46,113 nucleotides of DNA. Origin: Sphingobacteriales bacterium. Lineage in GTDB: Bacteria; Bacteroidota; Bacteroidia; Chitinophagales; JADIYW01. The position numbers were made by a program, and so were the translations under genes. The notes under the pieces were generated by a model. It ran no database searches, was not told where the DNA came from, and saw only the letters and a list, made by a program, of their open reading frames with translations. The DNA lies in contig CANHGL010000014.1 of NCBI GenBank assembly GCA_947460245.1, forward strand, positions 1-46,113. The letters run 5' to 3'. Shown here one piece after another: positions 31,016-38,760 of this stretch (position 1 is the stretch's first letter; each line of letters opens with the position of its first letter).

Positions 31016-31795
31016 TTGAGTACAGAATCTATCATATCATACAAAGAAAAAATAGATGCGGCTAAACTGCCACAGCATATTGCCATCATTATGGATGGGA
31101 ATGGCCGTTGGGCAGAGGCTCAGGGCAAGCACCGTATTTTTGGACATAGGAATGGAGTGAAGGCAGTGCGTGAGGTAGCAGAAGGATGCGCTGAGCTGGG
31201 TGTAAAGTACCTCACACTCTATGCATTCTCCACAGAAAACTGGAATCGTCCGAAACAAGAAGTCTCAGCATTGATGGAGCTGTTATTCTTAACAATAGGC
31301 AGGGAGATAAAGACGTTGCAAAAAAATGGTATACGCCTTAATGCCATTGGCAATATTCATACACTGCCTGCTTCCAACCGAAAGGCATTGCAGGAGGTAA
31401 TGGAAGCTACCAAACATAATACAAGAATGACACTCACGCTTGCCTTAAGCTATGGTTCCAGAGAGGAACTTGCGGAAGCTGCTCGTCAGTTGGCAGAAGA
31501 TTATAAGTCTGGTAAAATTACGTTAGAAGAGATAAGCGCTAGCAATATTTCAGCACATCTATATACCAAAGATATGCCGGATCCGGAACTGATGATTCGT
31601 ACAAGTGGTGAGCACAGAATTAGCAATTTCCTGCTTTGGCAGGCTGCCTATACAGAGTTGTACTTTACTGAAAAATTCTGGCCGGAGTTTAACAGAAATG
31701 ATCTTTTTGAGGCAATCTATGATTTCCAAAATAGGGAGCGCAGATTTGGTAAGACCAGTGAGCAAATCCATCAACAAACAACCACCAACTATTAA
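31016..31795 (+). CDS. uppS: Isoprenyl transferase (undecaprenyl diphosphate synthase)
   Basis: A 259-aa cis-prenyltransferase that makes undecaprenyl diphosphate, the lipid carrier for peptidoglycan and surface polysaccharide. D27 in IMDGNGRWA is the catalytic Mg-binding residue. FGHRNGVKAVR, TLYAFSTENWNRP and the terminal PDPELMIRTSGEHRISNFLL are family blocks. Full length. The start is TTG at 31016, four bases after the preceding stop; no ATG precedes the MDGNGRW motif in frame. bamA follows one base after the stop. The link to sugar-nucleotide genes nearby is one of pathway only. Confidence 0.95.
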   Translation: MSTESIISYKEKIDAAKLPQHIAIIMDGNGRWAEAQGKHRIFGHRNGVKAVREVAEGCAELGVKYLTLYAFSTENWNRPKQEVSALMELLFLTIGREIKTLQKNGIRLNAIGNIHTLPASNRKALQEVMEATKHNTRMTLTLALSYGSREELAEAARQLAEDYKSGKITLEEISASNISAHLYTKDMPDPELMIRTSGEHRISNFLLWQAAYTELYFTEKFWPEFNRNDLFEAIYDFQNRERRFGKTSEQIHQQTTTNY

Positions 31796-31796
31796 T

Positions 31797-34451
31797 ATGC
31801 AAATGATATTTAAAAAATACAGACACTTCTTATTGATGCTTGGTTGTTTAATACTGACTCAGTTATCTGGTGCACAGGAAATAGACAGCTCATTGGTAAA
31901 TTATAAAGAACCAAAGAAATATCGTTTGGCATCATTGGAGATTACGGGAACACAATATCTTGATAAAAATATTATCCGATCTCTCTCAGGACTTAAAACA
32001 GGGGATCTGATTTCTATTCCCGGCGATGAAGTCACTAAGTGTATTAAGAATCTCTGGAAACAAGGACTCTTTGGAAACGTTAAGGTTTTTATAGACAGAT
32101 TTGATGGAGATAATATATACCTATCTATTAATGTTCTTGAAAAACCAAGACTCAATGAAATTACCATAAAGGGAATAAAGAAAAGCGAAGCGGATGATAT
32201 TAAGAAGAAGTTGGATGCCTTAAAAGCTAAGCCGCTTACAGATGCATTAAAGCTCAATATACGCAACACGATTATAGATCACTATGAAGAGAAATCTTAT
32301 CTGAATCCTATTATAAATGTTATAGAGAAAAAAGATGAAGGACTGGTAAATAGTGCGTCCGTAGTAGTGAATATTGACAAGGGCAATAAGGTAAAGATTG
32401 ATGATCTTATCTTTTTGGGAAGAGTGAATGGTGAGCTACCAAAAATGCGTAAGGCTATGAAAGATACTAAGGAGCGATCTAAGGTAGAGATACGCATCAA
32501 CGACAAAAGAAGTCGCAAGCAGAAAGCAATAGATGCTTTATATACACTTGCCAATTTAAACTCGAATTCAGTAAAAGATTTTTTCCTGGAGCGTTTCAGA
32601 ATAACCTTTAAGGGGTCTAAGTTTAATGAAGGAAAGTACGAAGAGGATAAACAGAAGCTAATCGATTACTATAATAATAATGGATTTCGTGATGCCAGAA
32701 TTGTATCCGATACGGTTGTTAAAAATGATAATGGAAACGTGAGCGTAATCCTTACTTTAGATGAAGGGCATAAATATTATTTTAGAAATATCGTTTTTAA
32801 AGGGAACTCAAAGTTTTCTACAGAAGCATTAAACAGAGTGCTGAATATTAAGAAAGGGGATGTTTACAATGCTGAATTAATGCAGAAACGTTTAACTATG
32901 GATCAGGAAGGCGGAGATATTAGTTCGCTATATTATGATGATGGTTATCTGTTCTTCAATATTAATCCTGTTGAAACTTCGGTAGAGAACGATTCTATTG
33001 ATATAGAAATACGAATTAATGAAGGGCCACAGGCTACTATCAAAAACGTGATTATTGAAGGTAATGATAAAACTAATGAGCATGTTATTCGCAGAGAACT
33101 ACATACTTATCCCGGAGATAAGTTTAGTCGTTCTGATCTGATTCGTTCACAGCGTGAAATTGCAAACTTAGGTTTCTTTGATCCACAAGAAACGAAGGTA
33201 GAGCCGGTTCCTAATCCTACTGATGGAACGGTAGACATAAAATATACGGTTAAAGAAAAATCAGCAGACCAGGTAGAATTGTCTGCCGGTTGGGGTGGTC
33301 AGTCAGGAGGCCTGATTGGTACACTTGGATTAAAGTTCAATAATTTCTCTCTAAGAAATATCATCAATAAAAAAGCATGGTCGCCACTGCCAACAGGCGA
33401 TGGGCAGCAATTAACGGTTAGGGTAGAAAGTAATGGTAGAGCTTATCAGAATTATAATTTCTCTTTTACAGAGCCTTGGCTAGGAGGTAAGAAGCCGAAT
33501 GCCTTTACCGTTGCGGCATTCCGTTCTCGTTTGCAAGATATTGCCAATGGTACTATATATGGAAAGCAGATAACCAATGGCCTCTCCGTTTCTATTGGAA
33601 CGCGTTTGAAGAAGCCAGATGATTTTTTTATTGTACAAGCTTCAGCTAACTATTACGGCTATCAGTTGAGCTCTTTCAGAAATAGGTATTTTGTGGGTAA
33701 TGTTGCTTTGGATAGTGGACGATTCAATAATTTAAATTTCAAGCTTTCATTAACCAGAAATTCCATCAATCAGCCTATATTTCCAACAGGAGGTGCAAAG
33801 GTAGAGGTGTCATTACAATTTACGCCGCCTTATTCTCTTTTTAGAAAAGATAATAACTATGATGGTAAAACAATAGCAGAGAAATATAAACTCATTGAAT
33901 ACCATAAATGGAAATTCTCTATAGACTGGTATCAGTCGTTAGGTAAGTCAAAATTGGTATTAAGAACCTCCGCTAAGTTTGGATTCCTCGGCTCATTTAA
34001 TAATAAGATTGGTATAACTCCTTTTGAACGCTTTCAGGTAGGCGGTAATGGTATTCCATCTAACGTTACCTTATTTGGTACAGACATTATTGCTCAACGC
34101 GGTTATGAAGGAGCCTATTCTTCCAGTGGAGGAGATCCTTTGTATAATAAATTCTTATTGGAATTAAGATATCCGTTCTCTCTCAATCCTTCTGCAACTA
34201 TATTTGGTTTGGCTTTCTTTGAAGCGGCGAATACGTATACGAACTTTAAAGATTATAATCCTTTTAAACTCAAGAAGAGTGTCGGTATTGGTGTTAGGGC
34301 CATTCTACCTATGTTCGGTTTAATTGGTATAGATTATGGCATACGTTTTGATAGTGCTAATGGTAGTTCGATAAAGTCTACTAACGGTTTCTTTGATTAC
34401 ATAGGTAAAAATGGCAATATTTCATTTATACTTGGATTTGAGCCGGAATAA
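31797..34451 (+). CDS. bamA: Outer-membrane assembly factor BamA (Omp85)
   Basis: About 884 aa. The ATG at 31797, directly after the uppS stop, precedes a good signal peptide (FLLMLGCLILTQLSGA, cut near AQE). A longer in-frame opening upstream overlaps uppS and lacks a signal peptide, so I reject it. Several POTRA domains follow (for example LASLEITGTQYLDKNII, LNEITIKGIKKSEA, ATIKNVIIEGNDKTNEHVIRR), then the Omp85 barrel from ~560 with the lid-type motif FQVGGNGIP, a repeated-strand pattern, and terminal ISFILGFEPE. It inserts beta-barrel proteins in the outer membrane. Flanked by uppS and two Skp-like chaperones. Confidence 0.95.
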   Translation: MQMIFKKYRHFLLMLGCLILTQLSGAQEIDSSLVNYKEPKKYRLASLEITGTQYLDKNIIRSLSGLKTGDLISIPGDEVTKCIKNLWKQGLFGNVKVFIDRFDGDNIYLSINVLEKPRLNEITIKGIKKSEADDIKKKLDALKAKPLTDALKLNIRNTIIDHYEEKSYLNPIINVIEKKDEGLVNSASVVVNIDKGNKVKIDDLIFLGRVNGELPKMRKAMKDTKERSKVEIRINDKRSRKQKAIDALYTLANLNSNSVKDFFLERFRITFKGSKFNEGKYEEDKQKLIDYYNNNGFRDARIVSDTVVKNDNGNVSVILTLDEGHKYYFRNIVFKGNSKFSTEALNRVLNIKKGDVYNAELMQKRLTMDQEGGDISSLYYDDGYLFFNINPVETSVENDSIDIEIRINEGPQATIKNVIIEGNDKTNEHVIRRELHTYPGDKFSRSDLIRSQREIANLGFFDPQETKVEPVPNPTDGTVDIKYTVKEKSADQVELSAGWGGQSGGLIGTLGLKFNNFSLRNIINKKAWSPLPTGDGQQLTVRVESNGRAYQNYNFSFTEPWLGGKKPNAFTVAAFRSRLQDIANGTIYGKQITNGLSVSIGTRLKKPDDFFIVQASANYYGYQLSSFRNRYFVGNVALDSGRFNNLNFKLSLTRNSINQPIFPTGGAKVEVSLQFTPPYSLFRKDNNYDGKTIAEKYKLIEYHKWKFSIDWYQSLGKSKLVLRTSAKFGFLGSFNNKIGITPFERFQVGGNGIPSNVTLFGTDIIAQRGYEGAYSSSGGDPLYNKFLLELRYPFSLNPSATIFGLAFFEAANTYTNFKDYNPFKLKKSVGIGVRAILPMFGLIGIDYGIRFDSANGSSIKSTNGFFDYIGKNGNISFILGFEPE

Positions 34452-35595: not shown

Positions 35596-36411
35596 ATGCG
35601 AACAGCTTCACAAGCTATCGGTTTATTCGACTCAGGTATTGGCGGCTTAACGGTCGCCAATGCTATTTTGGGTCAACTGCCCAATGAATCATTGATTTAT
35701 TTCGGGGATACGGCTCATCTTCCATACGGCGATAAATCCGCAGACACTATTCGATATTTCACTAAAACTATTGGCACTTTCTTATTATCTAAGGAGTGTA
35801 AAATAATAGTAATCGCGTGTAATACTGCCTCCTCTGTCGCATATGATATGTTAGTGGAAATGGCAGGAGACAGTGCCTATGTATTCAATGTAATTGATCC
35901 AGTAGTAGAGGAGATTATCCAAAAAGGATATAAGAAAGTAGGTGTTATAGGCACTTTGGGTACTGTACAGTCTAATGTATACCAAAATAAAATTCATCAT
36001 TTAGATTCTTCGGTAGAAGTACATCAGCTGGCTACTCCACTTCTTGTTCCAATGATTGAATCTGGATTTGTAGATGGACAAATTTCGCATCTTGTCATTG
36101 AAGAATATTTGCGCGCACCTGAATTACAGGATATAGAAACGCTTGTACTTGCCTGTACGCATTATCCGTTAATTAAACCAGAAATAGAAGATTTCTATCA
36201 CCAAAGAGGCAGGCAGGTAAATGTATTGGCCACCAATGAAATTGTGGCAACACATATCAGGAATTTTATGATAGTACATGATTTAATAAATATGGAGAAG
36301 AAAGGAAGAGATACTTTCTATGTTTCTGATTATACTACAAGCTTTGAGAAAACAACAAAGTTATTCTATAAGGAATCAGTTAACCTTGTGCAGATTCCAT
36401 TATTCAAATAG
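35596..36411 (+). CDS. murI: Glutamate racemase
   Basis: The 271-aa enzyme converts L-glutamate to D-glutamate for peptidoglycan. D12 in GLFDSGIGGLTV, the first catalytic cysteine C75 in ACNTASS, and the second C187 with H189 in ACTHYPLI are all present, as is YFGDTAHLPYG. Full length. It is the last gene of the envelope operon (DUF6089-uppS-bamA-ompH-ompH-murI), the usual order in Bacteroidota. Its 3' end overlaps the convergent glycosyltransferase gene by 12 bp (36400-36411). Confidence 0.96.
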   Translation: MRTASQAIGLFDSGIGGLTVANAILGQLPNESLIYFGDTAHLPYGDKSADTIRYFTKTIGTFLLSKECKIIVIACNTASSVAYDMLVEMAGDSAYVFNVIDPVVEEIIQKGYKKVGVIGTLGTVQSNVYQNKIHHLDSSVEVHQLATPLLVPMIESGFVDGQISHLVIEEYLRAPELQDIETLVLACTHYPLIKPEIEDFYHQRGRQVNVLATNEIVATHIRNFMIVHDLINMEKKGRDTFYVSDYTTSFEKTTKLFYKESVNLVQIPLFK

Positions 36412-37500
36412 GAGTTCTTCTAGTTCAGCTGATATGCTTTCCTGACTCCCCTCAAATATTGGGAATCCTTCTATTCGCTCCAGTTGCTGCAATGCTTTTT
36501 GTATATCTAAATCTTCTTGTCTGCAGGTTAATGCATAACCCTTTTCAGAAAGGCTGCTGGCTAAGTATTCTTGTTCTGTTTGGCCGGCGGTAGGAATTAG
36601 AAGTGCTTTCTTTCCTAATACGGCAAGATCCATGATACTGCTATATCCTGATCGGCAGATTATTGTAGAAGCCTTCGTGAGTGCAGCATATAAATCGTTA
36701 GTGTTAAGGTAGGAAATGGCAGTAATATTGTTTTCTTCCAGTATATTCTGCTGCTCGGTCTTTCCTTGTATCAATAATATTTTCTCAGAGACATTTTGCA
36801 GTTGTTCTCTTAATGTGTCCTCTAATACTGTACGTTGTGGCTCTGGCCCTGACAGAACTACTGCTATTGAAAAATCCAGAGAATCAATAAAGGACTCTTT
36901 TTTTCTGAAATTTACAAATCTACTCTGTAAGCCAATATACCTATGAGGAATATCGAACGTAATATTGTGGGATAATATTCCAGATAGATTCTCTTTGCTT
37001 GATTCATCCGGAATCCAGAGCATATCAAATTTATTAATTTGCTGCAGGTGTAATTTCAGCAGAAGTGGATTCAAAAATGATACTCTTTTTGGTGCCTGTA
37101 ACGCGACTTGGTGGCACATAAAAACACTCTTGACTCTATCATTACGAACGCCATATCTGTTATCAGAAATTATAAAATCGATATTTTCTTCATTAATGAT
37201 AGATTCCGTTTGCAGCTTTTCTTTTTTTATAGTGCTCAGGATTTTAGGGGCTTGCAGTAAACTTTGTACGGCAGCATTCTTACCGATTGGATAAGAGATA
37301 TTGTATCCCGGAAGTTCATAGTGTTTTAGAGAAGGATACTGTTCTTTTAGGAGATATAAGGATCCGCCATTCCCGGCTATGGTAACATTTGCCCCCTTCT
37401 GCAGCAATAGGTCAATTAGTGGTATGCATCGTGTCGCATGTCCTAAGCCCCAGTCTAGTGGGGCTATTAGTATGCTCTTGTATTTTAACTTTTTAGATAT
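36400..37500 (-). CDS. MurG-like (GT28-type) glycosyltransferase with a non-canonical start
   Basis: The clear ORF has 335 aa from a TTG at 37407, but the same frame continues upstream to 37500 and encodes the conserved nucleotide-sugar transferase opening APLDWGLGHATRCIPLID. Including it gives 366 aa. The segment between that motif and the upstream in-frame stop has no ATG, GTG, TTG or CTG. The best-placed codon is ATA (37498-37500), giving (M)SKKLKYKSILIAPLDWG. The C-terminal domain has the donor-site motif ICRSGYSSIMDLAVLGKKAL and PTAGQTEQEYLA, as in MurG/GT28 enzymes. Acceptor and donor are unknown. Either the gene uses a rare AUA start, the start has been lost, or the sequence has an error. 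The upstream GT2 gene on the same strand ends 51 nt before it. Confidence 0.75.
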   Translation of the reverse strand: MSKKLKYKSILIAPLDWGLGHATRCIPLIDLLLQKGANVTIAGNGGSLYLLKEQYPSLKHYELPGYNISYPIGKNAAVQSLLQAPKILSTIKKEKLQTESIINEENIDFIISDNRYGVRNDRVKSVFMCHQVALQAPKRVSFLNPLLLKLHLQQINKFDMLWIPDESSKENLSGILSHNITFDIPHRYIGLQSRFVNFRKKESFIDSLDFSIAVVLSGPEPQRTVLEDTLREQLQNVSEKILLIQGKTEQQNILEENNITAISYLNTNDLYAALTKASTIICRSGYSSIMDLAVLGKKALLIPTAGQTEQEYLASSLSEKGYALTCRQEDLDIQKALQQLERIEGFPIFEGSQESISAELEELLFE

Positions 37501-37551
37501 GGTTGATAAATTTAGGTTGTAATAAAATTATCTTTTTTGATTGTATACCTT

Positions 37552-38760
37552 TCATTTCAATTTTCTTCCCTTCCAATTATAGGATAAAATATTACCAAAG
37601 GTGCCTACAAAAGGAATGTACCATAGATGTAATAGTTCGCTGTAATAAAAGGTGCTCATTAAATCCATTCGATTGAAGAAGCCTACCGCAGATTTTAGAA
37701 AATGATAATCGATGATACTCTTACAGATTATCTGGAAAATTAACATCAGTAGCGATAAAATAGCAGGTAGAAAAATAAAGAATGCTGCAGTAATATCTGA
37801 TGAAAAAAATAAAGCATGGATTAAAACTCCGAGAAAGAGTACCGCATTCGCCCAGATGCTAATTGTAAATAGATATACCAATCCTAGTATGATGGTTACA
37901 CGTTTATCTTGATAGGAAGCAGATTTAGAAGTCCAGCGAAAACGTTGTTGCAGAAAAGCTCCTAAGGTTTGCATAGGTTGAGTGAAAACGATGGCTGACC
38001 TATTCTTTAAAAAATGCACTCTGCCGGGAAAGTGTTTTGCAATTTTATAGACAAGCAACATGTCATCGCCACTTGCTTTTGTATCGATATCCTTATACCC
38101 ATTCACTTTTAAAAAAGCTTCTTTTTCATAAGCAAGATTTGCGCCATTAGCCATGTTGAATATTTTCATTCTAATCATAGCGGCAGTGATAGCCTGCATG
38201 CCACAGAAATCCAAGGCCTGAAAATACTGAAAGTGTGTTTGCTCTTGGTAATACCCTACGGGAGCTGCAATCAAAGCGCATTGTTCTTTCTCATAAAAAG
38301 AGACGATACTATGTACCCATTGCTTTTGGAGTTTACAATCCGCATCAGTGGTAATAATCAATTTGCCTTTTGCTAATTGTACTGCTGCTTCTATTGCCTT
38401 CTTTTTGTATGCTGTTGTTGGGGTATTGTATGGTAGTATGTCTTTTAGTCGGTATGCTTTTATATAAGGGTGTTGCTGGGAAAATTGCTGGCAAATTTCA
38501 TAAGTATCATCTTCCGAGAAATCATCTATAATAATTACTTCCAGCAAGTCAGTAGGATAGATCTGCTGCGTAATATCCTGTAATAGATGACCTATGTTAG
38601 CCCCTTCATTCCGCGCAGGAACAATAATCGTAACAGTAGTACTAGGGGTATCATTTAAGAGAGATACTTCTGCAATTTCTTCCCATTTATACTTGTAGGT
38701 TCTCATAATGCTGACATAGCAGATAGTGAGCAGTAAGGAGAGGAGCAGTATTGTGAGCAC
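37552..38760 (-). CDS. Family 2 glycosyltransferase, membrane-bound
   Basis: A 402-aa protein. A TM segment at the N-terminus (LTILLLSLLLTICYVSIM) is followed by a GT-A domain: TVTIIVPARNEGANIGHLLQ, VIIIDDFSEDD, and the metal-binding TTDADCK. The acceptor motif QQRFRWTSK near residue 270 fits the Q-x-x-RW-type signature. Three or so C-terminal helices (for example LIFQIICKSIIDYHFLKSAV) anchor it. It acts at the inner membrane in polysaccharide or glycolipid assembly; the product is unknown. It probably cotranscribes with the MurG-like gene 51 nt downstream. Confidence 0.9.
   Translation of the reverse strand: MLTILLLSLLLTICYVSIMRTYKYKWEEIAEVSLLNDTPSTTVTIIVPARNEGANIGHLLQDITQQIYPTDLLEVIIIDDFSEDDTYEICQQFSQQHPYIKAYRLKDILPYNTPTTAYKKKAIEAAVQLAKGKLIITTDADCKLQKQWVHSIVSFYEKEQCALIAAPVGYYQEQTHFQYFQALDFCGMQAITAAMIRMKIFNMANGANLAYEKEAFLKVNGYKDIDTKASGDDMLLVYKIAKHFPGRVHFLKNRSAIVFTQPMQTLGAFLQQRFRWTSKSASYQDKRVTIILGLVYLFTISIWANAVLFLGVLIHALFFSSDITAAFFIFLPAILSLLMLIFQIICKSIIDYHFLKSAVGFFNRMDLMSTFYYSELLHLWYIPFVGTFGNILSYNWKGRKLK

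Follow-up and report, generated by a model that had tools for sequence, protein, structure and literature searches.

Where does translation begin in a gene whose frame encodes a complete conserved N-terminus and offers no standard start codon ahead of it? The question is raised by a minus-strand glycosyltransferase gene at 36400..37500 of the window, by which we mean the whole stretch of DNA analysed, 46,113 nucleotides long. The window is an entire contig of a draft Sphingobacteriales genome (85 contigs, 2.21 Mb), the one draft assembly that represents its species, and because the contig is complete, the ATA triplet that concerns us is present in the assembly. Read along the minus strand, the frame passes from a stop codon (TAA 37530-37528) through FYYNLNLST to ATA 37500-37498 and then SKKLKYKSILIAPLDWGLGHATR, and it stays open to TAA 36402-36400, giving 366 codons from the ATA and a TAA stop. 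Between TAA 37530-37528 and TTG 37407-37405 this frame contains no ATG, GTG, TTG or CTG, and the WGLGHATR motif lies upstream of that first TTG, just as a preliminary description of this DNA had stated. The ATA stands at codon -16, counted back from the W of WGLGHATR, and is the sole ATN or CTG codon in the frame from the TAA to the strand with the sequence ILIAP. In the window and 200 kb of the same genome, a first ATG, GTG or TTG at least 35 codons past the stop occurs in 6 of 182 long ORFs, the glycosyltransferase included; judged by eye within this genome, conserved coding before the start was not seen in the other five.

The identity of the protein bears on what a late start would cost. 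The product matches PF04101, the GT28 C-terminal domain, at 54.2 bits (E 2.2e-14; gathering cut-off 22), and this Glyco_tran_28_C domain is what it has in common with the MurG/GT28 and MJ1255-VC2487 glycosyltransferases. It does not reach the curated cut-offs of either group: with the MurG model TIGR01133 it scores 43.3 bits against 250.25, and therefore falls outside MurG as that model delimits it, and with TIGR00661 (the MJ1255 family) it scores 64.3 bits against 195.9. A separate murG above the cut-off is present in the same genome. A sequence search of the PDB gave three weak matches, two of them murG structures. The AF2 model of the protein (mean pLDDT 90.7) has 50 listed Foldseek matches (E 1e-12 to 2e-10, TMq 0.55-0.71). 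Almost all of these are named as glycosyltransferases, which we take to be GT-B enzymes, and the structural match extends across both lobes, as the GT-B fold requires. Matches at E <= 0.001 were found in 195 of the 198 genomes of the window's order; for eight of them the top match is poor (E about 1e-5 to 1e-9), possibly a paralogue rather than this glycosyltransferase. A search of genome contigs with the window protein as the lone query returned no relative.

In the AF2 model the first beta strand comprises residues 9-14, followed by a loop at residues 15-19 and the first helix at residues 20-34. The first standard in-frame start, TTG 37405..37407, is residue 32, so that initiation there would remove residues 1-31 with WGLGHATR and would delete strand 1, the WGLGH glycine loop and most of helix 1. 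The earlier statement that a TTG start would cost the protein its first strand is thus correct, and we have rejected TTG 37407 as the start on these grounds.

Alignment with close relatives, which had been proposed as a check, gives a divided answer. In the sister genera, ATG or GTG is found at codon -16 in four of five loci and at -15 in one, and the window ATA aligns ungapped with the starts of L021-L024 (three ATG, one GTG), in agreement with the proposal that ATA 37498-37500 occupies the expected start position. The nearest relatives do not share this position: all seven from the window's own genus, 57-68% identical to the window glycosyltransferase, have TTG at codon -13, on the same count from the W of WGLGH. 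This TTG is the only ATG, GTG or TTG near the start in L003, L005 and L008, with a stop codon one or two codons ahead of it in L005 and L008, and in L006, L007 and L009 it shares bases with the stop codon of the GT2 gene upstream. Extra in-frame ATG codons occur in L004 (-18), L006 (-20) and L009 (-20), which the survey described below counts as ATG, and L007 has more ATG and TTG codons at -36 and beyond. The window, in contrast, has AAG at codon -13 and TTA at -12, and its start is therefore not simply that of its genus. In the tree it splits off before the six other full-length members of the genus (SH-aLRT 84, under the starred level). Given this early branching and the alignment at -16 with the sister genera, the ATA would most simply be the ancestral -16 start with its third base altered.

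The preliminary description treated the missing start as an anomaly of one gene, a view that is not borne out by a survey of the family. We scored loci for ATG, GTG or TTG in codons -30..-8, a zone initially set at -30..-6 and tightened because codon -6 sits inside the first strand. From 264 loci entered (L030, L300 and L304 were not, as repeats of L004, L181 and L237), we set aside eight without a recognisable motif (L046, L217, L233, L236, L244, L250, L346 and L352), one truncated at the edge of its contig (L337) and 16 duplicates. Among the 239 scored Bacteroidota loci that remain, 98 have ATG, 124 have only GTG or TTG, and 17 have none of these. Judged by these codons, weak initiation appears to be widespread for this glycosyltransferase among Bacteroidota: slightly more than half of the loci are without AUG near the start, the majority of them having UUG or GUG instead, and in several lineages AUC, AUU or CUG occupies the same or an adjacent place.

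Control genes were scored similarly around their own motifs, infC by a looser listing, and a standard start was present in every case: the loci without one number 0/69 for murI, 0/30 for murG and 0/15 for infC, or 0/114 in total. The murI set held 70 loci (179 genomes had a match), of which L299 has no motif; the murG set is the best 30 of 58 genomes with a match, and infC was scored in 15 of the 16 genomes searched. The excess of absent starts over the controls gives a Fisher p of 0.0011 by locus and of 0.012 on about 11 lineages, the surveyed loci sharing descent. At least ten changes of state are needed to account for the 17 non-standard loci on a 78-row tree, which was chosen to hold all 17 and is uninformative on frequency. 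The distinctive trait of the gene is this total absence of a standard start, not the use of codons other than ATG. Among the controls, murI, the convergent downstream neighbour in the window (35596..36411, plus strand; PF01177), has no ATG near the start in 37 of the 69 scored loci of the order (Fisher p 0.49), and we rejected the idea that this glycosyltransferase is set apart by non-ATG starts in themselves; murG, with 6/30 non-ATG loci, does differ from it (p 6e-5).

Of the 17 loci without a standard start, ten carry ATC or ATT at a codon from -12 to -14, CTG is found in two (at -13 and -10), and the window has its ATA at -16. In the other four (L067, L072, L132 and L316) no convincing ATN or CTG lies near the place expected, so that some of the absences may reflect error or decay. 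A GTG is present in L132, but at -32, beyond the scoring zone. In L072, a Lutibacter MAG, a TTG at -11 is followed at once by an in-frame TAA, possibly a nonsense change or an error at codon 2.

The clearest pattern is found in genus g103, where the N-terminus is readable in six of nine genomes. All six readable species lack ATG, GTG, TTG and CTG from the upstream stop to codon -8, and have ATC or ATT at -13 in five cases and at -12 in one (L305); the frame opens as near as codon -14, and in L302 it does so with a single codon ahead of the ATC. Identity among the proteins is 45-64%, and pN/pS is 0.36-0.52 at a pS near saturation. Six species speak against assembly error, and intact frames at such divergence speak against decay, and non-standard initiation of the glycosyltransferase in g103 therefore appears well supported. 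Across the five sequences aligned at -13, identity at this codon is 87%, the adjacent codons having 47% and 57%. Codons -9, -7 and -1, which are coding, have 87-100% identity, however, matching or exceeding it, so that conservation of codon -13 alone is no proof of a start. A further feature of g103 (L301-L306) is an AACGCAA block about 5-30 nt upstream of the ATC or ATT, intact in five of six and followed in most by AAAA.CATT, which is possibly a promoter, leader or start-site signal.

Two other genera extend the comparison. In g48, ATC is at -13 in both species, a few codons past the stop of an upstream gene that, from its C-terminus, presumably resembles uvrB. Genus g108 is mixed: L335 has ATC codons only, L345 has ATC at -13 and TTG at -10, L336 has ATG at -13, and L316 has nothing convincing. 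An AUH codon is conserved at the start position in six of six g103 species and two of two in g48, whereas the window's genus has TTG at -13 in all seven of its other members; the AUC and AUU starts proposed for g103 are firmer than the AUA proposed for the window.

Taking these observations together, we lean with modest confidence towards an intact window gene that is translated from the weak near-cognate AUA 37500-37498 without a Shine-Dalgarno site, and whose enzyme is likely kept scarce, with an IF3-sensitive synthesis. A real AUA start is favoured because 17 of the 239 loci are startless, through at least ten changes on the tree, with AUC or AUU conserved in two genera, and because the window protein is without a clear excess of unusual changes. 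The family pattern also raises the prior that the missing start in the window is real. The preliminary description had left three options side by side, an AUA start, an inactivated gene and a base error; the comparative data favour the first and weaken the other two.

The strongest of the alternatives, though in our view an unlikely one, is that ATA is a base error or the consensus of a minor variant in the draft, and that the organism has a standard start there. The sequence comes from one draft in 85 contigs, changing a single base of ATA or of TTA would produce a standard start, and the sister-genus relatives have three ATG codons and one GTG at the exact position. Substitution errors in short-read consensus are rare, however, and for one to hit the start of a gene in which non-standard starts already recur would be a coincidence.

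The remaining alternatives draw in part on the DNA just upstream. The preceding gene, a GT2-family glycosyltransferase (37552..38760, minus strand; Pfam PF00535), has a stop that ends 51 nt before the ATA. The two genes share a frame, yet two stops lie between them, and a read-through fusion was rejected. The spacer is occupied by a 20-codon ORF (37493..37555, minus strand), whose ATG overlaps the upstream stop (ATGA) and whose TAA, 37495-37493, lies just behind the ATA. Its peptide resembles the N-termini of relatives to a degree reached by 0.4-0.9% of 3000 random resamplings, and the ORF is possibly a coupling ORF or a relic of an old N-terminus. A tandem DNA duplication of the N-terminal segment was considered and is unsupported (p 0.44).

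A fresh pseudogene, with the start codon recently lost and the body still undecayed, would be in keeping with a start region that is rearranged relative to the genus, 51 nt separating the upstream stop from the ATA, and with an N-terminus-like ORF in another frame. We consider this improbable, since 366 codons are open and matches occur throughout nearly all of the order, the eight weak ones included. The window has unique changes at 13 of 144 otherwise invariant columns, against 0-11 of 131-142 in its six sisters (up to 11/142), which makes it the member of the seven with the most, by a small margin. Against the six genus relatives, pN/pS is 0.31-0.38 at a pS near saturation, indicative of purifying selection. 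The frame is thus unbroken and the changes are in no clear excess over the sisters, measures from which a very recent loss would escape detection.

A start at another non-standard codon is, if anything, slightly more doubtful. The likeliest candidate would be TTA 37486..37488 (minus strand, codon -12), as an altered form of the genus TTG, perhaps reached by ribosomes that re-initiate once they have terminated on the 20-codon ORF; 4 nt separate the stop of this ORF from the TTA. The TTG at -13 in seven of seven genus relatives points this way, as do TTA codons at -14 and -15 in the startless L067 and L132. The TTA is nevertheless offset by one codon from the genus TTG, it is a common codon in AT-rich DNA, and to our knowledge TTA is not a recognised bacterial start. 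Its context is suitable, with A at -3 and -6 as reported to be favoured in Flavobacterium (PMC6847099). Finally, a start at ATG 37555 with a +1 shift before TAA 37495, either programmed or an assembly indel error, would add a 20-residue N-terminal extension and is very improbable: the ATG overlaps the upstream stop like the TTG of L006, L007 and L009, and the ORF peptide has the N-terminal resemblance noted above, but none of the 12 family relatives showed the extension, which would yield a second copy of the first strand, and by eye the spacer has no slippery heptamer or CUU-UGA-like site.

If the gene is indeed translated from the AUA, initiator tRNA would read this codon at low efficiency without a Shine-Dalgarno site, the poor start codon would keep the sugar-transfer enzyme scarce, and its synthesis, gated by the quality of the start codon, would respond to initiation factor IF3. 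As a matter of speculation, the 20-codon ORF ending just behind the ATA could hand terminating ribosomes to it. We infer that AUA itself initiates in the window organism; low dose may be the property under selection, and IF3 may be the gate of initiation. In the predicted leader fold neither ATA nor TTA is paired, and a weak AU stem stops 4 nt short of the ATA (z -1.74, equalled by 14 of 200 shuffles). The window ATA has A at -3 and T at -6; the g103 ATC and ATT codons have C or T at -3, so that the start context would be poor there too.

How does this arrangement compare with known systems? Near-cognate AUH starts have been described in a handful of genes. E. coli pcnB is reportedly an enzyme gene outside the translation machinery that is limited by an AUU start; the pcnB enzyme is unrelated to the window glycosyltransferase, and its host's mRNAs normally bear Shine-Dalgarno sites. 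In infC, the basis of IF3 autoregulation, a conserved AUH start likewise limits translation, the reported codons being ATT for E. coli and ATC for Streptomyces (PMC5472188), and AUA for S. aureus (PMC13009471), although the window gene encodes a glycosyltransferase and not a translation factor. IF3 is reported to repress starts other than ATG, GTG and TTG, as illustrated by infC and sigR (PMC5472188). Streptomyces sigR, a dose-critical gene with a non-canonical GTC start, is reported from experiment to be IF3-repressed (PMC5472188); codon and gene both differ from those proposed for the window. Our infC loci, drawn from the window genus, g103, g48 and g108 (L412-L426, with the window genome as L414), all have TTG at the conserved start position (15 of 15), which may represent a Bacteroidota version of IF3 autoregulation by means of a weak start.

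The closest parallels in codon are in S. aureus, where the AUA starts of ccpN and citZ and the AUU start of cvfC1 are reported to give about 10% of the yield from AUG, and up to 30% for ccpN; those of ccpN and cvfC1 are conserved across species and that of citZ within one strain lineage, and these AUA and AUU mRNAs feature extended Shine-Dalgarno motifs (PMC13009471). By eye, the window ATA and the g103 ATC and ATT codons, in contrast, are preceded by no such motif. Bacteroidetes are reported to be without Shine-Dalgarno sites, and initiation in Flavobacterium to be tuned by A at -3 and -6 together with weak structure (PMC6847099). The main text of this Flavobacterium profiling study contains neither 'non-AUG' nor 'AUU', and among the titles and abstract openings listed for open-licence PMC papers, none names a near-cognate start in Bacteroidota or in this glycosyltransferase.

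A broader proposal, to which we give slightly less than an even chance, is that Bacteroidota hold a near-universal glycosyltransferase low through selection for bad starts, which would wander among UUG, GUG, AUG and the IF3-sensitive AUC, AUU, AUA and CUG at a near-fixed position, with AUC or AUU fixed in some genera and the window as an AUA instance. Near-cognate initiation independent of Shine-Dalgarno pairing would then serve as a permanent means of regulation. A conserved AUC or AUU start in a phylum without Shine-Dalgarno sites would, if true, imply that such starts are chosen by other means, and the gene would offer a ready reporter for start-codon choice in Bacteroidota. Gene finders limited to ATG, GTG and TTG would clip or drop the enzyme, N-terminal glycine loop included, in whole genera.

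Two further features of the DNA deserve mention. A hairpin, AGCCCCA/UGGGGCU, is predicted at 37443-37470 (minus strand; codons 11-20, 30 nt behind the ATA), and is probably forced in part by the coding of APLDWG; Rfam found none of its known RNAs in ten loci. Elsewhere in the window, at 31016-34451 on the plus strand, an undecaprenyl diphosphate synthase ORF precedes one for an Omp85/POTRA protein. Read from the first GTG listed for the latter, the two overlap by 191 nt, and the true Omp85 start probably lies further in than this GTG.
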